Shown here piece by piece: positions 50,305-63,654 of a stretch of 64,000 nt of DNA; the stretch's first letter is position 1; every line of letters starts with the position of its first letter. Under the pieces are notes generated by a model. The model did no database searches, was not told the DNA's origin, and saw only the letters and a program-made list of their open reading frames with translations. The stretch is taken from assembly GCA_028724245.1 (NCBI GenBank), contig JAQYDI010000126.1:1-64000 (forward strand). The letters are read 5' to 3'. Origin of the DNA: Lachnospiraceae bacterium. Lineage in GTDB: Bacteria > Bacillota > Clostridia > Lachnospirales > Lachnospiraceae. A program made the translations under genes and the position numbers.

Positions 50305-51519
50305 TTATGCCAGTGCTTCTACAGATGCCTTGATGATCTCATAAGCCTTGTCGCAGTCTTCTTCTGTGATGATCAGCGGAGGAATCATACGGATCATATG
50401 GGCACCGATGGCGGTAATCAGCAGATGGCGGTGCAGACATTCATGTTTTACATCTACGCCGGAGATGGTGTCGTCAAATTCCACACCAACCAGCAGACCC
50501 TGACCTCTGACTTCTTTTACATGGGGCAGATCTTTTAATTTGTTCATGAAGTAATCACCCATCTTCTTTGCATTATCTGCCAGATTGCGGTCCAGAAGTT
50601 CGTTGATTTCTGCCAGTGCTGCTGCACAGCTTACAGGATGTCCGCCGAAAGTAGTTCCATGAGAACCGGGGGTAAATGCTTTGGATACTTCTTCTGTTGC
50701 ACAGATTGCACCGATGGGCATACCGCCGCCCATTGCTTTTGCCATGGATACGATATCGGGTTTGATGCCATAGTTCATGAAGGACATCACCTTACCGGTT
50801 CTGCACCAGCCGGTCTGTACCTCATCGATCAGCAGCAGCATATCTTTTTCATCACAGAAATCACGAAGTCCCTGCATGAATTCCTGTGTTGCGGGATGTA
50901 CGCCGCCTTCACCCTGTACAGGCTCGATCATGATGGCGATGGTGTCTTCTGTACATGCATCCTTAAATGCCTGCAGATTGTTGTATTCTGCATAGGTGAA
51001 ACCATCTGTCATGGGACCGAAACCGATCTGGCAGCCATTGTCAGGCTGACCGGTAGCGGACATGGCACCGAATGTTCTGCCGTGGAAGCCCATGGAAGCG
51101 GTTACGATATTGTATCTCTTAGGACCGTATTTTTCAACACCGTATTTTCTTGCCATCTTGATCATGGCTTCATTGGCCTCGGTACCGGAATTCTGGAAAA
51201 AGATCTTGTCCATACCGATAGTTGTACAGATCTTCTCGGCCAGCAGCGCCTGAGGAATGGTGTAAGGATAGTTGAATGTATGCATAATGTCGGAAACCTG
51301 ATCCTTAACGGCTGCTACAACCTTATCATTGCAGTTTCCGGCCGAGTTTACAGCAATACCGGCATAGAAATCCAGATATGCTTCGCCGTTTTCATCGTAC
51401 ATGTACTGATCTTTTGCTGTTTCTGCAATAAAATCAAAACGTTCATAGGTTTCGATCATGTACTTGCTTACTTTGTCCTTAATGTCCTGAGCTGTTAACC
51501 CTGTGTCTTTTAATCTCAT
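50305..51519 (-). CDS. Class III aminotransferase (acetylornithine/ornithine aminotransferase-like)
   Basis: FFQNSGTEANEAMIKMARKYG; IEPVQGEGGVHPATQEFMQGLRDFCDEKDMLLLIDEVQTGWCRTG; SMAKAMGGGMPIGA. Confidence 0.9.
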   Translation of the reverse strand: MRLKDTGLTAQDIKDKVSKYMIETYERFDFIAETAKDQYMYDENGEAYLDFYAGIAVNSAGNCNDKVVAAVKDQVSDIMHTFNYPYTIPQALLAEKICTTIGMDKIFFQNSGTEANEAMIKMARKYGVEKYGPKRYNIVTASMGFHGRTFGAMSATGQPDNGCQIGFGPMTDGFTYAEYNNLQAFKDACTEDTIAIMIEPVQGEGGVHPATQEFMQGLRDFCDEKDMLLLIDEVQTGWCRTGKVMSFMNYGIKPDIVSMAKAMGGGMPIGAICATEEVSKAFTPGSHGTTFGGHPVSCAAALAEINELLDRNLADNAKKMGDYFMNKLKDLPHVKEVRGQGLLVGVEFDDTISGVDVKHECLHRHLLITAIGAHMIRMIPPLIITEEDCDKAYEIIKASVEALA

Positions 51520-51893: not shown

Positions 51894-52478
51894 TTATGCT
51901 TTGGGAAGGAACGCAAATACACTGACCAGGCGCACTCTTTCGTCTGTTTCATTTTTGTAGCTGTGTTCCCTGTCCGACTGAAACAAAAGCGCATCCTCCG
52001 GCTCCACAATATAGCTTTCGTCCTTCAGTTCCAGTGTCAGAGTTCCCTCTATGCCGATAATATACTCCATTGTTTTTTCCCCGTGAGAGCCGCTGTAATA
52101 GATTCCATGGGGTTCCAGTTCTATGATGTAGATTTCAAAGTTCCGTTTTTTCTCAAAAGGAAAATACGTATACACCGTATACTGGCCCGGCACTTCTTTG
52201 GAAGGGATCAGGTCCCTGTGATTCACCTTGTAGGCCTCCACCTCCGGTTCCCGTATCAGGTCATCAAATTCCACCCGCAGTCCGCTGACGATCTTGCCCA
52301 GCACACCGATGGTCGGATTCGATTCGCCCCGCTCGATCTGTCCCAGCATACTTTTGCTGACACCGGTCTGCTCCGAAAGCTCATCCAGACTCATCTTCTT
52401 GGCCAGTCTGATTTTCTTCAGATTGACTGCCACATTGTGAACCAGAAAATCCGTTTTTCTATTTTCCTTTTTATTCAT
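51894..52478 (-). CDS. XRE family regulator with cupin sensor domain
   Basis: LKKIRLAKKMSLDELSEQTGVSKSMLGQIERGESNPTIGVLGKI HTH; C-terminal cupin HGEKTMEYIIGIEGTLTLEL. Confidence 0.93.
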   Translation of the reverse strand: MNKKENRKTDFLVHNVAVNLKKIRLAKKMSLDELSEQTGVSKSMLGQIERGESNPTIGVLGKIVSGLRVEFDDLIREPEVEAYKVNHRDLIPSKEVPGQYTVYTYFPFEKKRNFEIYIIELEPHGIYYSGSHGEKTMEYIIGIEGTLTLELKDESYIVEPEDALLFQSDREHSYKNETDERVRLVSVFAFLPKA

Positions 52479-52553: not shown

Positions 52554-54167
52554 CTATACCACCAGCGATTTCAGGTACAGAGGAAGTAAATGCCTGCTGC
52601 GTTCCTTCAGATTGTAATTTCCGCCCTGCACACACCAGTCATAGATCATGCCGCGCTCCAGAGATGCATAATCCGCAGCAAGATTTTCCGATGTATCGGA
52701 CGTGATAAACTCACCTGTTTTCTGTCCTTCTTCAATAATCTGTGGTATCAGTTTATAATAAAAACGATCCCGATTCAACAGATTCTGTCGTTCTTTTCCC
52801 ATATTTACATAAAGATGGCTGACCAGATTGAAAGGAACCTTCTCCTCAATCAGCCCGAACAGCTCCTGATTCAGATACAGAAGCCTGTCATAATGGCTCA
52901 GCTTCGGATCCATGGAAACCATCAGTTCCGCATATTTCTGGTCAAATAAATCACCCAGCGTATCCTCCAGATCTTCCTTGGCTGAAAAATTGTCATAAAA
53001 ATCTTCCATGGACACCTGTGCCTTTTTCACCACATCCTGAATCGTCGTTTCCGAAAATCCCTGTCTGCGGAAAAGATCCCATGCAGCCCGGACAATGCGG
53101 CTGCGCTTGCTTTCTTTTTCCTTTTCTTTTTTGGAACCCAGAAGGAAGCCGTATTCCAGCGGATCTTTCTCATCCAGCACCCACGTATTGATGCCGGTAA
53201 TATAGGCGCTGCCGGTAATCTGAGGAATAATGCCCCGGCGTCCCCCGATTTCCACTTCCGTCGTCACCATACCCTTAAACAGGGAACCGGTGATACTCTC
53301 ATAGATAAATTCCTGATTCAGGCCCAGCTCACCTCTGGCGTATAGGGCCGCCATCTTGGCGCTGGTCCCGGTACCGCAGGGGCAGCGATCCGCCTGCGCA
53401 TTGCCGAAAATAACACAATTCTTCATATCAGCCTTCGGATTGTCCGTGTGACTGTAAAATTCCACCAGATCCACCGTTGTGATATCGAGATAGGGGTGCT
53501 TCACCTTGATGGTGCGGTTGATCCGCTCCAGAAGCTCCATGCCAAGAGAAGTGATGGCCTCGATATTTTCCGCATCCAGTGAAAGATGAATTGCTTCCGC
53601 ATCCACCAGAGCGAAAAAAGAACCGCCGAAAGAAATATCAAAGGGAATTCTTCCCTTTCCGGGAACATCAATTTCCAGACCTTCCTGATAAAGGAAAGAG
53701 GGCACATTGAGAATGCTGACTTCGACCGCCCTTCCGTTTACCACATGGACCCGGGTACGGATGATGCCGGAAGGTGCGTCAAGAACCACTTCCGTATAGG
53801 GTTCCTTCACTTCCACCATGCCCATTTCCACCAGTGTATAGGCTGTACCGATGCTTCCATGGCCGCACATATTCAGACATCCGCCGCTGTCCATGAAAAT
53901 AACACCCACATCAGCTTCTTCATGAACCGGTTCCGTCAGCAGTGCGCCAAACATATCCCGGTGTCCCCGGGGCTCCAGCATCAGCGCAGAGCGCAGAAAA
54001 TCATAATGCTCCATAAGATATTTTTTCTTATCCATCATGGTATCTCCCAAAAGTTCGGGAAATCCATCATAAACGATCCGGGTCGGTTCCCCGATCGTAT
54101 GGGAATCTATTGTTTTGATCTGATAGGCATAGGGGATTCTCCCCATCTGAATCTTCATTTTTTCCAT
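52554..54167 (-). CDS. prdF: Proline racemase (PrdF-like) fused to a C-terminal TetR-family regulator
   Basis: Residues ~15-344 proline racemase with both catalytic Cys (NMCGHGS, DRCPCGTGTS); residues ~355-402 TetR HTH RIVRAAWDLFRRQGFSETTIQDVVKKAQVSMEDFYDNFSAKEDLEDTL plus ligand-like helical C-terminus. Confidence 0.93.
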   Translation of the reverse strand: MEKMKIQMGRIPYAYQIKTIDSHTIGEPTRIVYDGFPELLGDTMMDKKKYLMEHYDFLRSALMLEPRGHRDMFGALLTEPVHEEADVGVIFMDSGGCLNMCGHGSIGTAYTLVEMGMVEVKEPYTEVVLDAPSGIIRTRVHVVNGRAVEVSILNVPSFLYQEGLEIDVPGKGRIPFDISFGGSFFALVDAEAIHLSLDAENIEAITSLGMELLERINRTIKVKHPYLDITTVDLVEFYSHTDNPKADMKNCVIFGNAQADRCPCGTGTSAKMAALYARGELGLNQEFIYESITGSLFKGMVTTEVEIGGRRGIIPQITGSAYITGINTWVLDEKDPLEYGFLLGSKKEKEKESKRSRIVRAAWDLFRRQGFSETTIQDVVKKAQVSMEDFYDNFSAKEDLEDTLGDLFDQKYAELMVSMDPKLSHYDRLLYLNQELFGLIEEKVPFNLVSHLYVNMGKERQNLLNRDRFYYKLIPQIIEEGQKTGEFITSDTSENLAADYASLERGMIYDWCVQGGNYNLKERSRHLLPLYLKSLVV

Positions 54168-54185: not shown

Positions 54186-54818
54186 TTACAGCTGCAGAAT
54201 CTGACCGTATTTTTTTCTGGTCTGACCTGTTCCGAATTTAATCTCCGCCACAGCCGCCAGTGCCTGCGCGGTACCTTCCACGCCCAGCAGGGAGCTGTTG
54301 ATGATCAGATCCTTGTGCTGCGGATCCTCCTGCGAATATTTTGCGAAGTGCTTATGATACGAATTTCTCGCCTTATCCACACGGGCGATCATTTTCTTTG
54401 CCTCATCCTTTTTCATACCCAGAGGTCCTGTGCAGTTTGCCAGACGATCTTCATAGGGAGCATAAATATATACATGAATGGCATTTGGATGATCCGCCAG
54501 AATATAATCGGCACAGCGTCCTACAATAATGCAGGATTCTCTGGCCGCCAGCCTGCTGATAATGTCGCACTGCACATCAAACAGCTTTTTCTGCCGTTCT
54601 GCCGTCTCAGTACCAAGTGGGAAAATCATCTCAAAAAAGCCTGACTTGCGCTCTTCGGCATCACTGATGACCGGCACAGGCAGATTCATCCGCTTCGCCG
54701 TTTCATCCACGATATCCCTGTCATAATATTCTATCCCCAGCAGTTCGGAAAGCCGTCTGGCAATAGGTCTCCCCAGACTTCCGAACTCCCTCGAAATTGT
54801 AATCACATATTTGTCCAT
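54186..54818 (-). CDS. Cytidylate kinase-like family protein
   Basis: YVITISREFGSLGRPIARRLSELLGIEYYDRDIV; SCIIVGRCADYILAD. Confidence 0.88.
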   Translation of the reverse strand: MDKYVITISREFGSLGRPIARRLSELLGIEYYDRDIVDETAKRMNLPVPVISDAEERKSGFFEMIFPLGTETAERQKKLFDVQCDIISRLAARESCIIVGRCADYILADHPNAIHVYIYAPYEDRLANCTGPLGMKKDEAKKMIARVDKARNSYHKHFAKYSQEDPQHKDLIINSSLLGVEGTAQALAAVAEIKFGTGQTRKKYGQILQL

Positions 54819-54840: not shown

Positions 54841-55587
54841 TTATGAAGCAAGAAATCTTGAAAGAAATGTTCTGGTGCGTTCCTCTCTGGGATTACCGAA
54901 TACTTCTTCCGGTGTTCCTTCTTCCACAACATATCCGTCCGCCATGAAAATCACACGGTCCGCCACATCTCTTGCAAATGCCATTTCATGGGTTACCACC
55001 ACCATGGTCATACCGTCATCCGCAAGACTTCTCATAACATTAAGCACTTCACCCACCAGCTCGGGATCCAGTGCAGAAGTCGGTTCATCAAACAAAAGTG
55101 CAGTAGGATCCATGGCCAGCGCTCTGGCAATGGCCACACGCTGCTGCTGCCCGCCTGACAGCATGGAAGGCTTTGCGGAAGCTTTACTCTCCAGACCCAC
55201 CTTTCCCAGAAGCTCCATGGCATAAGCCTCCGCTTCTTTTTTATTCTTATGCTTTGTCAGAACCGGTGCCAAAGTTACGTTTCCAAGAACCGTGCGCAGC
55301 GGAAACAGGTTGAATTTCTGAAATACCATGCCCACTTCCTCACGGAATCTGCGGATATCTGCTTTTTTATCGCAGAGATTTTCCCCTTTATAGTAAATTT
55401 CACCGCCGGTGGGCACTTCCAGCTGATTGATGCAGCGCAGAAATGTACTTTTCCCGGATCCGGAGGGACCGATAATACATACCACTTCTCCCTCATGAAT
55501 ATCTACATTAATATCACGGAGTACTTCCAGATCCCCGAACGATTTCATTAAATGACTGACTTTGATTAACGGTTCGCTCATATTCAT
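54841..55587 (-). CDS. Amino acid ABC transporter ATP-binding protein
   Basis: [70 protein letters not shown]. Confidence 0.95.
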
Positions 55588-55597
55588 CCCTCCTGAT

Positions 55598-56263
55598 TTA
55601 TTTGTTGATTTTAACCTCTACCACTTTCTGCAGGATCATCAGCACCGACAGCAGCACCAGATAAAACAGAGCGCATACCGTATAGGCCGGAATCGTATTC
55701 AGTGTACGTGTGGCATAATTCTGTGTCTGCCTTGTAATCTCATTGACAGAGATCATGGAAAGCAGCGCCGTGTCCTTCAGGGAAATAATAAACTGGTTGA
55801 ATAAGCCTGGAATCATGGACTTAAAGGCCGGCGGAATGACGATATGAGTCATGATCTGTGCCTTTGTCAGCCCCAGAGAACTTCCCGCTTCCTTCTGCCC
55901 TGCATCAACGCCCTCCAGAGCCCCCTTTACCAGCGCTGAAATAAATGCGCCTGCATTCAGGGTAATGACGATGATACCTGCCAGCGTACTGTCAAGAATA
56001 AAGGTTTCCCCTTTAATTTTCGTAATGATTGCCGGAACCACAAAGTAAACATACAGCGCCTGTACCACCAGGGGCGTACCGCGGATAATCCAGATATAAA
56101 CATTGGCAATCACCTTTGCGATTCTGCTGCTGCTCTGCAGCGCATAACCGGTAATTGCTCCCAGAACAAAACCCAGTAAAATACCGACCACAGCCACCTC
56201 CATGGTAACCTTCAGTCCACGGAACAGCATGGGGATAATCACCTGTAAAAATTCCAAATCCAT
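55598..56263 (-). CDS. Amino acid ABC transporter permease (His/Glu/Gln/Arg/opine type)
   Basis: [64 protein letters not shown]. Confidence 0.93.
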
Positions 56264-56396
56264 CGTATCTCTCCTTTCATTTTCTGTTTGCGGCAGATAC
56301 AATATACGGGAGAAGGCAGCCGCCTCTCCCGCATGCAATGCCGGTTCAGATAAATGATTTCTTCATATCATCAATTGACTGACATCAGAACCTGTT

Positions 56397-57278
56397 TTAT
56401 TCACACCACTTTGCTTTGATCTCGTCAATTTTTCCGGTTTCTGTCAGATAATCGATGGCATCATTGAAGTTGTCAACAATGTCGGGATATTTATCACAGA
56501 TATTAAAGGATAATGCAATCGCATAAGGCGCCTGGCCGTTATAGAATTCATCACCCACGATCTTCAGTTTTACTTCACCGGACTTGATCGCATAGGAAGT
56601 ACCGGGTGCATCATAAATCGTTGCATCTGCCTGACCGCCTTCTACTGCTTTGTAAGCCAGAGTCTGTGCATCATAGGTCTGCAGACAGGATTCAGGCAGA
56701 TTTGCTGCTGCATATTCATAGGCAATGGTACCTGTCTGTACAGCTACCGTATATTCACCACTCTCCAGATCTTCCACAGAGGTGATGCTGTCGTTATCCT
56801 CAGCAACTGCTACGATGATACCTGCATCGTAGTAGGTTTCGGTAAAGTTCATATTTTTCTTTCTTTCATCAGTTGCACACAATGCTGCGGCGCCGATATC
56901 CAGCTGATTGGATGTCAGTGATGTGGTCAGCGGGCCGTAATCCATATCGGAAATGGTACCTCCGTTGATTTCAAATCCCAGAACGTCCTGCAGTGCATAC
57001 AGGAAATCCACATCGAAGCCCTGCAGTGTAACACCGTCTTCCGCAAAATAGGAGAACGGTGCATAAGTGCCGGAAGTTCCGATATTCAGTACAACGCCTT
57101 TCAGTGCATCCTTGCATGCCGGTCCTTCCGCATCGGATGTGTCCGTGTCTGCTGCAGCAGCAGTTGTTGTCGGTTCTTTTGTTTCTTCCTTACTTTCTGA
57201 ACTGCTTCCACCGCATCCTGTCAGTACAGATGCTGCCATAAGACCTGCAAGTACAGCTGAAACCAATCTTTTTTTCAT
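56397..57278 (-). CDS. Amino acid ABC transporter substrate-binding lipoprotein
   Basis: MKKRLVSAVLAGLMAASVLTGCGGSSS lipobox; PBP type 2 YAPFSYFAEDGVTLQGFDVDFLYAL. Confidence 0.93.
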   Translation of the reverse strand: MKKRLVSAVLAGLMAASVLTGCGGSSSESKEETKEPTTTAAAADTDTSDAEGPACKDALKGVVLNIGTSGTYAPFSYFAEDGVTLQGFDVDFLYALQDVLGFEINGGTISDMDYGPLTTSLTSNQLDIGAAALCATDERKKNMNFTETYYDAGIIVAVAEDNDSITSVEDLESGEYTVAVQTGTIAYEYAAANLPESCLQTYDAQTLAYKAVEGGQADATIYDAPGTSYAIKSGEVKLKIVGDEFYNGQAPYAIALSFNICDKYPDIVDNFNDAIDYLTETGKIDEIKAKWCE

Positions 57279-57390
57279 ATCCTTTTTCCTCCTGTCCAAT
57301 AATTCACGTCTGAATGAAAAATGAAAATAGTATAAATTCCAGTTAAACAGCTGCAGCAATTTTGTTTTGACCATGTTCCGTTTAAAAATA

Positions 57391-57451
57391 CCGGACAAAC
57401 AAAAAAACGACAGGCCGGTCACTGATAAAGCGCCTTTGCCTGTCGTTTCTG
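57391..57451 (-). terminator. Hairpin with T7 tract in the leader of the amino-acid ABC operon (attenuator candidate)
   Basis: Minus strand: AACGACAGGC-...-GGCCTGTCGTTTTTTT, ~110 nt upstream of the SBP start. Confidence 0.65.
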
Positions 57452-57866: not shown

Positions 57867-58742
57867 ATGAATATCAACAAATACGCTCTTTTTGTAGATG
57901 TGGCCGACACAAAGAACTTTACCAGAAGCGGAGAACGCATGGGATATACCCAGCCGGGAGTCAGTCATATATTAAAGGTTATGGAAACAGAACTTGGCTT
58001 TTCCCTGTTTCAGCGGACAAAACAGGGAGTGGTACTCACCCCCAATGCAGAAATCATTCTGCCGCTGGTACGCAACCTTCTTGCAGTGAATGAGCAGCTG
58101 GAGCAGACGATCAGTTCCATCAACGGTCTGAAAACCGGTCACCTGACCATTGCTTCTTTTGCAAGTATTGCCAGAAACTGGCTGCCGGCCATCATCTATA
58201 CCTTTCAGCAGGAATATCCGGGCATCGAAATCGAACTGCTGGAAGGCGGTACAGACGATATCGTGGACTGGGTGAAAAACAATCAGGCCGATTTCGGCCT
58301 GCTGAGCCATAAAAATGCCCACTCCCTGAAATGGATCCCGCTCTATGAAGACCCTCTGGTAGCCATTATTCCAAAGGATTATGAAACACCGGAAAACGGC
58401 GTATTTCCCATTGAAAAGCTGTCGGATTACCCCTTTATCATATCGGCTGCAGGTGTTGACTATGATATCCATCAATATCTGAAAGAAATGGGAATTACAC
58501 CTGATATCCGTTTTTCTTCCAAAGGTGATCTGGCCATCGTCTCCATGGTTGCCAACCATCTGGGGATCAGCATCCTTCCCAAGCTGATCATCGAAAGCTG
58601 CAAAAATGATATTCAGGCGCTTCCTCTGGAGCCTTTTGCCTCCCGGGAACTGGGCATCGGCATCCATTCCTCCAGCAGTCTTTCACCGGCAGCCGGATAT
58701 TTTATTGAAACCATCCAGAAAGTACTGCCGGACCTGATCTGA
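57867..58742 (+). CDS. LysR family transcriptional regulator
   Basis: NINKYALFVDVADTKNFTRSGERMGYTQPGVSHILKVMETELGFSLFQRTKQGVVLTPNAE. Confidence 0.95.
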   Translation: MNINKYALFVDVADTKNFTRSGERMGYTQPGVSHILKVMETELGFSLFQRTKQGVVLTPNAEIILPLVRNLLAVNEQLEQTISSINGLKTGHLTIASFASIARNWLPAIIYTFQQEYPGIEIELLEGGTDDIVDWVKNNQADFGLLSHKNAHSLKWIPLYEDPLVAIIPKDYETPENGVFPIEKLSDYPFIISAAGVDYDIHQYLKEMGITPDIRFSSKGDLAIVSMVANHLGISILPKLIIESCKNDIQALPLEPFASRELGIGIHSSSSLSPAAGYFIETIQKVLPDLI

Positions 58743-58886: not shown

Positions 58887-60431
58887 ATGAAATATACATT
58901 ATTACTGAAGCAGCATATCGGAGCCCCCTGCAGTCCGGTGCTTCCTGTGGGTTCCCGGGTTTGTAAAGGAACCCTGCTGGCTGTTCCCACAGGACTCGGC
59001 GCACCCCTCCACTCCTCTGTGGACGGCATTCTGACAGAAATTACAGACACCGCACTTATTATAGAAGCTTCGGAGTCCCAGTCCGATACATTTCTTTCTC
59101 TGGAACCCGGTTCCGATGAAGAACTGCTGAAGGCCTCCGGACTCGTCGGCATGGGAGGAGCAGGATTTCCCACTTCTGTAAAATGCCATATTGATCTGAA
59201 GGGCGGTTTTATTCTGGTCAATGCAGCCGAATGTGAACCGCTGCTGGAGCACAACATCCATCAGCTGGAACAAAATGCCGAAAAAACCATGGACGGCCTG
59301 AAACGGATCATGAAGCTGTGCAATGCCCGCAAAGGTATTTTTGCCATCAAGGAAAAACACGCAGGAGCAGTCGGCATTTTAAAAAAGCTCTGTGAAAACG
59401 AGCCCGACATTTCCTTCCATCTTCTGCCGGACCTGTACCCCATGGGAGAAGAACGGGCCGTGGTCCGTGAAGTTCTGGGCCCCCTGTTAAAACCCACAGA
59501 ACTTCCTTCTGCAGCAGACGCCGTGGTCATCAACGTGGAAACGGTGCTCCGTGCAGCTGAAGCAATGATCGACCGCCGTCCCTATATTTCAAAAAATGTT
59601 TCCGTGGCAGGGAAACTGAAAGGCGGCACGCATACCCGCGTATTCTTTGATGTGCCTTTGGGAACAACCGTCGGACATCTGATCGAACAGGCCGGCGGCA
59701 TAGACGGCGAATACGGCGAAATCATTATGGGCGGTCCCTTTACAGGCCATGCGGTTTCCCTCGATACCCCCATTACAAAAACTACCGGCGGTATCATCGT
59801 TACAGCCCCCTTTGAGAATCTGAATCACGCAAAAACAGGCCTTCTTCTCTGTGCATGCGGCGGAAATCAGGCCCGTATGGAAGACATTGCAGCAAAAATG
59901 AACGGTGATGTGGTACTCATCCAGAAATGCAAACAGGCAGCCGATATAAAAGGTACCCTGAAATGCGAAAACCCCGGCAACTGTCCCGGACAGGCCCAGA
60001 AATGCCTGAACTTCAAAAAAGCAGGCTGTACCGATATTATTATCGGAAACTGCAGCGACTGCACCAACACCGTCATGGGCTCCGCGCCCAAACTGGGACT
60101 CAGGGTACATCACCAGACCGACCATGTATTCGACACGGTTTCCAAAGAAAGAATGCGTTATCTGACCACCTCAAAAACCTGCGGTACAACACAGGATGAG
60201 CAGGAAAAAGCTGGTATGAAGGATATGCCGAAACCAGTCAAAATGCATAAAACAAATGATATACAGAATCAGGCTGAAGCGCAAAATTCAGCTGATATGC
60301 CAAAAACGGCTGATACACAAAAGACGGCTGAAGTACAGGATCCGGCTAATATCACGATAGAAAATAATGTACTGCGGATCGATATTGAGGAAGGCCGTGA
60401 TATCCATATTGAATTTCCGGTATTCTTCTGA
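58887..60431 (+). CDS. prdC: Proline reductase-associated electron transfer protein PrdC (RnfC-like), Cys at the usual Sec position
   Basis: RnfC-like GLVGMGGAGFPTSVKCHI; GLLLCACGGNQARMEDIA; KCENPGNCPGQAQKCL; GNCSDCTNTVMGSAPKLGL. Confidence 0.9.
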   Translation: MKYTLLLKQHIGAPCSPVLPVGSRVCKGTLLAVPTGLGAPLHSSVDGILTEITDTALIIEASESQSDTFLSLEPGSDEELLKASGLVGMGGAGFPTSVKCHIDLKGGFILVNAAECEPLLEHNIHQLEQNAEKTMDGLKRIMKLCNARKGIFAIKEKHAGAVGILKKLCENEPDISFHLLPDLYPMGEERAVVREVLGPLLKPTELPSAADAVVINVETVLRAAEAMIDRRPYISKNVSVAGKLKGGTHTRVFFDVPLGTTVGHLIEQAGGIDGEYGEIIMGGPFTGHAVSLDTPITKTTGGIIVTAPFENLNHAKTGLLLCACGGNQARMEDIAAKMNGDVVLIQKCKQAADIKGTLKCENPGNCPGQAQKCLNFKKAGCTDIIIGNCSDCTNTVMGSAPKLGLRVHHQTDHVFDTVSKERMRYLTTSKTCGTTQDEQEKAGMKDMPKPVKMHKTNDIQNQAEAQNSADMPKTADTQKTAEVQDPANITIENNVLRIDIEEGRDIHIEFPVFF

Positions 60432-60567
60432 ATCCGGTTTTATATCGAATCAGTTTTTTCAGGCTGTTTTACAGTCTATTTCTATAAAACTTATTTACAG
60501 CTGTTTTCCGGGCTGTTCCCAATAGATGGTCTGAACCGGAAACGCTGCTGCAGATTGGAGATATGTT

Positions 60568-62589
60568 ATGTCAATCAGTGAACAAACCGCAAAAGAACAT
60601 GCAAATGACCCGGCAGTTCTCTGCTGCCGTGCCGAAAAAGGTATTACATTAACCTCACATAATCTGGAGGATCCTGCTATTTTCGAGGATCTTGTGGATT
60701 CCGGACTACTGAATCTGGACGGCTGCCTGAAAATCAGCCAGGTTCTGGGTGCCGTACTGACCAAAACCTGTGATTCCCTGACCCCCCTGACAGCTGATGT
60801 GATTGATCACATCGTGGATTTTTCAGAGGAAGAAGAAAACAAAGAAGAAGGAAATCAGAAAGAAAGCAATCAAGAAAATCAAAAAGCAGCACCTGATCAG
60901 AAAAAAAATCCGGCAGCAAAAGAAACAGCGAAAGCAGAGAAAGCTCCAGATTCAGCTGCCCAGCCGGTACCTCCCGCTTTCATGAAAGCCCCCGTCCCGT
61001 TTCCCGCAGGTACCCTGAAAATATCCATCGGAGAAGGAAAAAATATCCATATCGAACTTCCCATGGGTATGGTTCCCCCAGGTGCCGCAGGGATGGAATC
61101 CGGTCTGATGCCTGCTGAAAGAAACGCAAACAGCGAAACGACTTCCCGTGAAGGCGTGTCTGCTGAATCTGTTCCTGCTGATTCCTCTCCTGCTGATTCT
61201 GTTTCAGCCGCTCCCGATCCGGAGCCGAAGCTTATACGTTCTCTGACCCGCCACCATTACAAAATCACAGAAGTGCGGCGCGGACCAAAGACGAAAATTG
61301 AAGGAACCGTTCTTTATATCCGTGAAGGAATCGAACAGGAAGCCATTGACAGTCAGGAACTGGTTCATGATCTTAAGATCGACATTATCACACCCGATGC
61401 ATACCATACTTATTCTGAAACGATCATGGATGTGCAGCCCATTGCGGTAAAAGACGGTGAATCCGAACTGGGATCCGGTATCACACGTGTACTGGATGGC
61501 GTGATCATGATGGTAACCGGAACCGATGACAACGGTGTACAGATCGGCGAATTTGGTTCCTCTGAAGGCATGCTGGATGAAAATATCATGTGGAATCGTC
61601 CCGGCGCTCCCGATAAAGGAGAAATTTTCATCAAAACTCAGGTTACTATTAAAGCCGGAACCAACATGGAGCGTCCCGGTCCTCTGGCCGCTCACTCCGC
61701 TACCGATGTCATTACCCATGAAATCCGTCAGGCTTTAAAGGAACTGGACGACGAATCACTGATCGTTGATAAGGAAACCTTCCATCAGTACCGCCGGCCC
61801 GGAAAGAAAAAAGTTGTCATTGTCAAAGAAATTATGGGGCAGGGAGCCATGCACGATAATCTGCTTCTTCCTCAGGAGCCGGTGGGAGTGCTCGGTGCCA
61901 GACCCAATGTGGATCTTGGCAATGTACCGGTTATGGTATCACCGCTGGAAGTGCTGGACGGATGTATCCACGCACTGACCTGTATCGGCCCCGCATCAAA
62001 GGAAATGTCCCGTCATTACTGGAGAGAGCCGCTCGTACTGGAAACCCTTTTCGATCCGGAACTTGATCTGTGCGGTGTCCTGCTGGTAGGCAGCCCCCAG
62101 ATCAACGCTGAGAAATTTTATGTATCCAAACGTGTAGGTATGACCTGTGAGGCACTGGATGTGGATGGCGCTTTTGTTACCACAGAAGGCTTCGGCAACA
62201 ATCATATTGATTTTGCCAGCCACATTGAACAGATCGGCATGCGCGGCATCGCCGTAGTAGGTATGTCTTTCTGTGCCAATCAGGGAGCGCTTGTAGTTGG
62301 CAACAAATACATGACCCACATGGTTGACAACAATAAATCAGAAGCAGGCATTGAAAATGAAGTCCTTGCCAACAATACCCTCTGCCCTGAAGATGCAATC
62401 CGTGCAATCTATATGCTGAAAGCCCAGATGAACGGCACGAAAGTAAAAGCCCCCGAGCGCAAATGGAACCCTCATGTAAAAGAAAACAATATGGATCTGA
62501 TTTCCAACGTTACCGGAAAACCCATTACCCCGGTGCTGAATGAAACCTCTCTTCCCATGAGTCAGAAACGCAGAGAAAAATATTCATAG
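60568..62589 (+). CDS. prdA: D-proline reductase (dithiol) proprotein PrdA
   Basis: MSISEQTAKEHANDPAVLCCRAEKGITLTSHNLEDPAIFEDLVDSGLL; pyruvoyl cleavage region HALTCIGPASKEMSRHYWREPLV (Cys codon 61981-61983); GFGNNHIDFASHIEQIGMRGI. Confidence 0.97.
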   Translation: MSISEQTAKEHANDPAVLCCRAEKGITLTSHNLEDPAIFEDLVDSGLLNLDGCLKISQVLGAVLTKTCDSLTPLTADVIDHIVDFSEEEENKEEGNQKESNQENQKAAPDQKKNPAAKETAKAEKAPDSAAQPVPPAFMKAPVPFPAGTLKISIGEGKNIHIELPMGMVPPGAAGMESGLMPAERNANSETTSREGVSAESVPADSSPADSVSAAPDPEPKLIRSLTRHHYKITEVRRGPKTKIEGTVLYIREGIEQEAIDSQELVHDLKIDIITPDAYHTYSETIMDVQPIAVKDGESELGSGITRVLDGVIMMVTGTDDNGVQIGEFGSSEGMLDENIMWNRPGAPDKGEIFIKTQVTIKAGTNMERPGPLAAHSATDVITHEIRQALKELDDESLIVDKETFHQYRRPGKKKVVIVKEIMGQGAMHDNLLLPQEPVGVLGARPNVDLGNVPVMVSPLEVLDGCIHALTCIGPASKEMSRHYWREPLVLETLFDPELDLCGVLLVGSPQINAEKFYVSKRVGMTCEALDVDGAFVTTEGFGNNHIDFASHIEQIGMRGIAVVGMSFCANQGALVVGNKYMTHMVDNNKSEAGIENEVLANNTLCPEDAIRAIYMLKAQMNGTKVKAPERKWNPHVKENNMDLISNVTGKPITPVLNETSLPMSQKRREKYS

Positions 62590-62608: not shown

Positions 62609-62872
62609 ATGAAAAAATCATTACAGTATGGAGATAAGATCATATATATGGAAGGCATCATCGTGGATGTAAGCGATGGTGCCGTTGGAATTGACCTGAA
62701 AGGCCGTCTGGGATATCTGAAAATTCCAAAACGGATGCTGATCTCCGATTATGAGATCAGACCGGGTCAGGAAGTAGGATTCAACATGAGCTTTATTGAG
62801 CAGTTAACTGATGAACCAAATGAAGCTTATGTCAGTAATCAGATAAATCACAGTCCCCGATCGGGGTGCTGA
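62609..62872 (+). CDS. CBO2463/CBO2479-type small protein between prdA and prdB
   Basis: MKKSLQYGDKIIYMEGIIVDVSDGAVGIDLKGRLGYLKIPKRMLISDYEIRPGQEVGFNMSFIEQ; position in prd cluster. Confidence 0.8.
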   Translation: MKKSLQYGDKIIYMEGIIVDVSDGAVGIDLKGRLGYLKIPKRMLISDYEIRPGQEVGFNMSFIEQLTDEPNEAYVSNQINHSPRSGC

Positions 62873-62925
62873 TCATATCCGGCTGCCGCCAATACCTGAT
62901 GCGGCCGGCCGGGAAAGGAGAGAAA

Positions 62926-63654
62926 ATGAGCAGTTTAACAGTCATTGACGGTCTGCAGTCTGAGATTTTTGTGCCGGTTACTCCGCCCCCTGTATGGACC
63001 CCCGTTACCAAACCTCTCAGTGAAATGAAGGTTGCCATTGCAACCGCAGCAGGCGTACACCATAAAAAGGATAAAAGATTCAATCTTTCCGGTGATTTTA
63101 CATTCCGCAGAGTCACCGACGATATGCCTTCTGATGAATTGATGGTTTCCCATGGAGGATATGATAACAGCGATGTCAATAAAGATATCAATTGTATGTT
63201 CCCCATCGATCCTCTTCACCAGCTGGCAAAAGACGGCGTCATCGGCAGCGTTTCCGACATCCACATCGGATTCATGGGCGGCGGCGGAAATCAGGAAAAA
63301 TTCAAAAATGAAACGGGTCCCGAAATCGCCCGCATCTTAAAGGAGCATGAGGTTGACGCTGTCATCCTCACCGCCGGATGAGGGACCTGTCACCGCTCTG
63401 CAGTACTGGTGCAGAGAGCAATTGAGCAGGCTGGTATCCCTACAGTGATCATTGCCGCTCTTCCGCCTGTTGTAAAACAGACCGGAACCCCTCGTGCTGT
63501 AGCTCCGCTGGTACCCATGGGTGCCAATGCAGGCGCTCCCCACGATTTTGAAATGCAGTACAACATCGTAAAATCCGCGCTGGAACAGCTGGAAATACTG
63601 GACTCTCCAGGCAAAGTCGTACCGCTTCCTTTTGAATATAACGCAAAAGTATAA
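62926..63654 (+). CDS. prdB: D-proline reductase PrdB, selenoprotein (UGA at 63379-63381 read as Sec)
   Basis: Two ORFs join in frame through UGA: ...VDAVILTAG-U-GTCHRSAVLVQRAIEQAGIPTV...; 242 aa total. Confidence 0.95.
63382..63420 (+). promoter_or_regulatory. Bacterial SECIS element candidate in prdB
   Basis: CTCTGCA-GTACTGG-TGCAGAG hairpin at 63396-63416, starting 15 nt after UGA. Confidence 0.75.

Follow-up and report, generated by a model that had tools for sequence, protein, structure and literature searches.

A TetR-like domain fused to PrdF-type proline racemases of Lachnospiraceae has lost its DNA-contact residues

Proteins that unite an enzyme with a regulator are commonly taken for trigger enzymes, and proline Stickland fermentation is a main sink of electrons for anaerobes of the gut and the rumen. 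The 64,000-nucleotide stretch of a Lachnospiraceae genome analyzed here (the window) holds an ORF in which a proline racemase is followed by a TetR-type domain, close to genes of the D-proline reductase. Does this TetR half still read DNA, or has it become a part of the enzyme? We slightly favour the second answer, namely that a TetR repressor would have lost DNA binding and become part of a PrdF-type racemase, with a probably allosteric or oligomerising role. The features of the fusion are the following.

52554-54167, minus strand: racemase-TetR fusion ORF, 537 residues, a single ORF with an ATG start and free of interruption
53145-54110, minus strand: proline racemase domain, residues 20-341 (PF05544, E 2e-116; 7pb3 AsProR, E 9.9e-120; Foldseek matches to proline racemases)
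53865-53867, minus strand: codon of the catalytic Cys101 (NMCGHGS), invariant in 15 aligned fusions
53376-53378, minus strand: codon of the catalytic Cys264 (CPCGTGTS), likewise invariant in these 15
53103-53135, minus strand: charged linker, residues 345-355 (SKKEKEKESKR), devoid of a start codon (pLDDT below 50 over residues 330-351)
52959-53102, minus strand: TetR-type HTH, residues 356-403, fold retained, DNA-contact positions gone (PF00440, E 2.8e-9; alignment columns; AF2 helices 354-369, 376-383 and 387-393)
52986-53015, minus strand: degenerate recognition-helix motif VSMEDFYDNF, residues 385-394 (TSKG[TS]FYxYF in stand-alone relatives; sequence alignment)
52557-52958, minus strand: TetR C-terminal ligand/dimerisation domain (CTD), residues 404-537, under purifying selection (dN/dS 0.02-0.06 where measurable; AF2; FadR-like TetRs as best PDB folds)
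52953-53153, minus strand: 201 nt (67 codons, residues 339-405) missing in frame in the sister species G002 (SUG789), from sequence comparison

The 537-codon ORF described in the original prediction is real and unbroken; ORF analysis of the window places it on the minus strand, a correction to a prediction that had stated none. Pfam analysis reports a Pro_racemase hit scoring 389 bits against a cut-off of 27, and a TetR_N hit covering residues 358-400 above the gathering score. No in-frame start codon occurs in the window ORF from the racemase end up to mid-HTH; a separate TetR product is therefore not expected, and translation of the TetR half on its own was ruled out as an account of the window.

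Among solved structures, AsProR, a proline racemase (7pb3, residues 15-343), is nearest in sequence, with TcPRAC coming next, while the remainder of the protein matches TetR structures. The full-length match to PrdF-type racemase of the original prediction is confirmed, as are the two catalytic cysteines, C101 and C264. The trans-3-hydroxyproline dehydratase carries a Cys/Thr pair instead of two catalytic cysteines, and this pair is not what the fusion contains. The best NCBIfam model is the proline racemase NF010576, which beats the hydroxyproline models by 159 bits; since its score of 485 bits lies below the equivalog cut-off of 556, the protein is classed as PrdF-type and not as a strict equivalog. 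It is the sole racemase match in the window's own genome (~90% complete). By predicted activity, the enzyme half is a proline racemase of the PrdF type, set in a Stickland locus for D-proline reductase, the neighbouring genes of which are listed below.

50305-51519, minus strand: acetylornithine/ornithine-type aminotransferase (TIGR00707, 432 bits)
51894-52478, minus strand: regulator with XRE-HTH and cupin domains (PF01381, PF07883)
54186-54818, minus strand: cytidylate-kinase-like protein (PF13189, E 3e-48)
54841-57422, minus strand: amino-acid-type ABC transporter comprising ATPase, permease and binding protein (ORF inspection; conserved in relatives)
57867-58742, plus strand: LysR regulator, divergent from the fusion operon and upstream of prdC (PF00126, PF03466)
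58887-62589, plus strand: D-proline reductase genes prdC (58887-60431; TIGR04481) and prdA (60568-62589; TIGR04480), each scoring above its equivalog cut-off

The prd genes that had been predicted nearby are hence genuine neighbours of the fusion. Further along, prdB (62866-63654) exhibits an in-frame TGA at 63379-63381 (codons ACC GCC GGA TGA GGG ACC TGT, context TAG-U-GTC), consistent with the selenocysteine codon expected for D-proline reductase. In this clade, the cytidylate-kinase-like gene keeps its place, with the ABC transporter on one side and the racemase on the other. The gene located 3' of the fusion differs by species (L127 5613-6509, L138 5639-6517, L136 5593-6465, L159 9994-10905), being an EamA transporter in some and a radical-SAM activase-like protein with 4Fe-4S motifs in others. 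In Pseudobutyrivibrio sp. OR37 (L134 5588-7644), the fusion is followed by a pyrroline-5-carboxylate reductase and then by an ornithine-type aminotransferase, a gene order that suggests a route from ornithine through proline to D-proline, feeding the D-proline reductase.

Is this fusion peculiar to one genome? When the fused TetR alignment was used to scan 85,462 species genomes, at least 15 loci came back, a floor given the strict patterns used, and 15 out of 15 carry the same fusion. The titles of the fused loci include Pseudobutyrivibrio, Hespellia, Herbinix, Lachnoclostridium and Eubacterium, with records titled as strains among them (Pseudobutyrivibrio sp. OR37 and Lachnospiraceae bacterium KH1T2). 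Searches of the family, the hit genera, the order and the class report full fusions in G154, G356, G403, G404, G702 and G714. Counted as distinct sequences, the full-length relatives number at least 12, and they come from many assemblies. The racemase-TetR fusion is therefore a conserved family in gut and rumen bacteria across many genera, which answers the domain-architecture check that had been proposed for it; among the racemase matches of order-wide and class-wide genome samples, none outside Lachnospiraceae was seen to carry it. An assembly error or a stop codon lost in a single metagenome bin might have been suspected, the window genome assembly being fragmented and incomplete, but the identical fusion occurs in many assemblies, including both strain records and the two-contig genome G702, which rules out such an artefact and leaves it a negligible probability. 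The fusion is real and widespread, and is undescribed in the open-licence literature searched (on fusions, non-DNA-binding TetRs and trigger enzymes), in line with the original prediction, which knew of no described example.

The likely origin of the fusion can be read from its relatives. In ~25 other Lachnospiraceae loci, a separate racemase gene is immediately followed by a tetR gene on the same strand, these pairs being usually divergent from prdC. In the racemase tree, the fused sequences fall within one 22-row clade (support 92, not starred), six rows of which are unfused, and this clade adjoins a 29-row clade containing gene pairs. In a TetR tree built without the recognition-helix columns, the fused TetRs group together with support 98/95 and the gene-pair TetRs with support 98/84, these two clades being joined against other TetRs with moderate support (88/78). 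Both states occur even under one genus code, G714 possessing the TetR domain and G157 being devoid of it. It would be simplest to assume that a conserved racemase-tetR gene pair became one protein once, and that the TetR part was later lost in some members. Stand-alone TetRs lie directly 3' of the prd racemase in many Lachnospiraceae (e.g. L086, L088, L089, L091, L095 and L098); such a TetR is a candidate local prd regulator, of which no description was found in the open-licence literature.

What became of the HTH was assessed by comparing 12 distinct fused HTHs with 42 stand-alone TetRs of the same family, 24 of them located beside racemase genes and 18 elsewhere. The recognition helix TSKG[TS]FYxYF, near-invariant in the 42 stand-alone proteins, is destroyed in all 12 fusions, and with it the Lys/Gly/Thr motif of the family; the other TetR family features, namely a TetR_N match above cut-off and a helical CTD, are present. 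Position 388 is a Gly in 42/42 stand-alone TetRs and in 0/12 fusions (Glu in eight, Asp in two, Ala in two), while position 387 is a Lys or Arg in 42/42 and a Lys in 2/12. The recognition helix of G702, for instance, reads IKESEFYECF. The fused helices repeatedly carry acidic residues at positions 387-389, and position 388 is acidic in none of 27 clear HTHs of unrelated TetRs from the same genera, the sequences of which were read directly. The Tyr that bonds DNA in other family members (QacR Tyr40, FatR Tyr45), and whose Y45E substitution in FatR derepresses the target (PMC3814354), is found at its position in 42/42 stand-alone and in 7/12 fused HTHs. The net charge of the HTH was dropped as an indicator of lost DNA binding, the non-prd TetR group being acidic too, and residue identity at the contact positions was used in its place.

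The rates of change tell the same two groups of proteins apart. The recognition helices have an average identity of 0.95 and 0.81 inside the two stand-alone groups and of 0.40 among the fusions; the corresponding identities of HTH and CTD are 0.85/0.69 and 0.69/0.52 against 0.53/0.61. The median HTH/CTD dN ratio rises from 0.45 and 0.52 in the stand-alone groups to 1.31 in the fusions, with ratios above 1 in 0/276 and 2/153 pairs of the former and in 58/66 pairs of the latter; in the fused proteins, the HTH diverges faster than either the racemase or the CTD. Conversely, the HTH core residues I358, V359, A362, W363, F366, F394 and K397 are invariant in the fusions, hence the fold is retained. 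The DNA-contact residues are thus lost in the fused TetR half, which, judging from these substitutions, probably no longer binds DNA.

The CTD evolved otherwise. Between close fusions, dN/dS amounts to 0.03-0.06 in the racemase part, to 0.02-0.06 in the CTD where measurable and to 0.05-0.15 in the HTH, synonymous sites being often saturated, and many CTD positions are invariant from Herbinix to the window species, pointing to strong purifying selection on this domain. As the HTH value is also well below 1, the HTH is not drifting freely and may still serve some function. The in-frame deletion of the sister species G002 removes the linker and the HTH and joins the racemase straight to a CTD that is ~98% identical to that of the window. 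This deletion is known from one metagenome assembly, scan locus L125 being the same assembly and not an independent one; past the junction, identity declines smoothly from 1.00 to 0.90 without a clear breakpoint, and a chimeric contig is neither shown nor excluded as its cause. Another shortened gene, at 1650-2447 of L078 (G402:C111), bears two in-frame internal deletions that may be real or an assembly artefact, and retains the racemase to residue ~190, a short stretch at the second catalytic Cys and the final 47 residues of the TetR part. AF2 modelling of the TetR part alone yields a nine-helix TetR fold (pLDDT 90, pTM 0.81), for which Foldseek reports FadR-type regulators as the nearest folds (TM ~0.7-0.78). 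A model of the complete protein reaches pLDDT 75 and pTM 0.52, too low for positioning the halves relative to each other.

If we assume that a stand-alone tetR downstream of the racemase gene, as in related genera, was the ancestor of the TetR half, then the recognition helix would have degenerated after fusion and DNA binding would have been given up, up to the full deletion of the HTH in one species, while the helical core and the dimerisation/ligand-binding domain would have stayed under selection. The CTD would most likely act in cis, by dimerising and/or by binding a small ligand, and thereby control or stabilise the racemase. As for prd transcription in the fused clade, it might more likely be run by the adjacent LysR. 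A LysR like that of the window (319-426 bits) lies near the racemase in most loci of the fused clade and of its unfused members that include enough flanking sequence, whereas in the gene-pair clade the best LysR match near prd reaches 73 bits, an association suggesting that LysR took over prd control. We tentatively put forward, as one possible course of events, that the TetR fused to its neighbour enzyme, shed DNA binding and turned into an in-cis domain that senses a ligand and acts allosterically, control having moved from transcription to the enzyme as LysR took the promoter; the separate gene pair, the fusion, the HTH deletion and the loss of the domain would then be its stages surviving in relatives. 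Among the roles of the TetR half, allostery appears the most likely, then assembly, both ahead of docking and of slow decay.

The trigger enzyme of the original prediction, a DNA-bound reporter of proline flux, would require a TetR half that still binds DNA, maybe with a changed specificity, and links the turnover of proline to the expression of neighbour genes. Although the TetR_N match above the Pfam cut-off, the invariant core with its intact AF2 fold and an HTH dN/dS below 1 are what such a regulator would exhibit, the near-invariant Lys, Gly and Thr of the recognition helix have been replaced in 12/12 fusions, with acidic substitutes, the helices are 40% identical among fusions, the HTH/CTD rates are reversed, and one species dispenses with the HTH altogether. 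The degeneration of HTH residues, which that prediction had itself named as evidence against a regulator, is found at the sequence level in every fused HTH examined, and a trigger enzyme appears quite improbable.

The TetR half might instead be a harmlessly folding remnant of the old regulator, vanishing lineage by lineage. The unfused members of the racemase clade, such as G157, imply that the domain is dispensable for the enzyme, and the six unfused rows out of 22, the difference between G157 and G714 inside one genus code, the HTH deletion of G002 and the doubly deleted copy of G402 would all fit such a decay. However, a dispensable tail would be expected to accumulate stops and frameshifts, and its CTD would hardly remain so constrained over large synonymous divergence or keep so many invariant positions, which makes a mere remnant rather unlikely. 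DhaS, a TetR-fold protein working through DhaQ, offers a further analogy, whereby the altered HTH and the CTD would dock the racemase onto the proline reductase or onto the local LysR or XRE regulator. The recurrent acidic residues at 387-389, the low HTH dN/dS and a weak profile match to DhaS, one among many TetR models, could be accommodated by such an adaptor; this match falls far under its cut-off, the named partners are candidates only and the domain is lost in several members, so that we consider docking distinctly unlikely. The preferred reading remains a TetR domain that no longer binds DNA and probably serves the racemase.

The comparative data hence point the opposite way from a trigger enzyme, the DNA-reading surface being lost and the sensor/dimer core retained. 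If true, this would be a traceable conversion of a transcription factor into an enzyme domain, every stage of which is found in living Lachnospiraceae, and it bears on the control of proline Stickland fermentation. It also cautions that a Pfam TetR_N match alone is insufficient for naming such proteins regulators.

Compared with known systems, the fusion resembles the PrdF-type proline racemases (PF05544; AsProR 7pb3, TcPRAC 1w61) in its full-length match, its two cysteines and its D-proline reductase locus, and differs from AsProR and TcPRAC by ~190 extra residues with a TetR fold, the matched solved racemases consisting of the racemase part alone. The stand-alone TetRs beside the racemase (L086, L088, L091) are ~40-45% identical to the fused half across the whole TetR part and have a CTD signature in common with it (e.g. 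RxYY, ERG/ERA and YDW); unlike it, they are encoded by their own gene and combine an intact TSKG recognition helix and a slow HTH with a faster-evolving CTD. The nearest solved folds, the FadR-type TetRs of T. thermophilus (3ang) and B. subtilis (3whb), share 15-24% identity with the TetR part. FadR-type regulators bind acyl-CoA and DNA, features of FadR of which the sequence and the model of the fusion give no sign. Lastly, trigger enzymes likewise unite an enzyme and a regulator-type domain on one polypeptide; in the fusion, at the sequence level, the enzyme half is intact and the regulator part is the one devoid of its DNA-contact residues.
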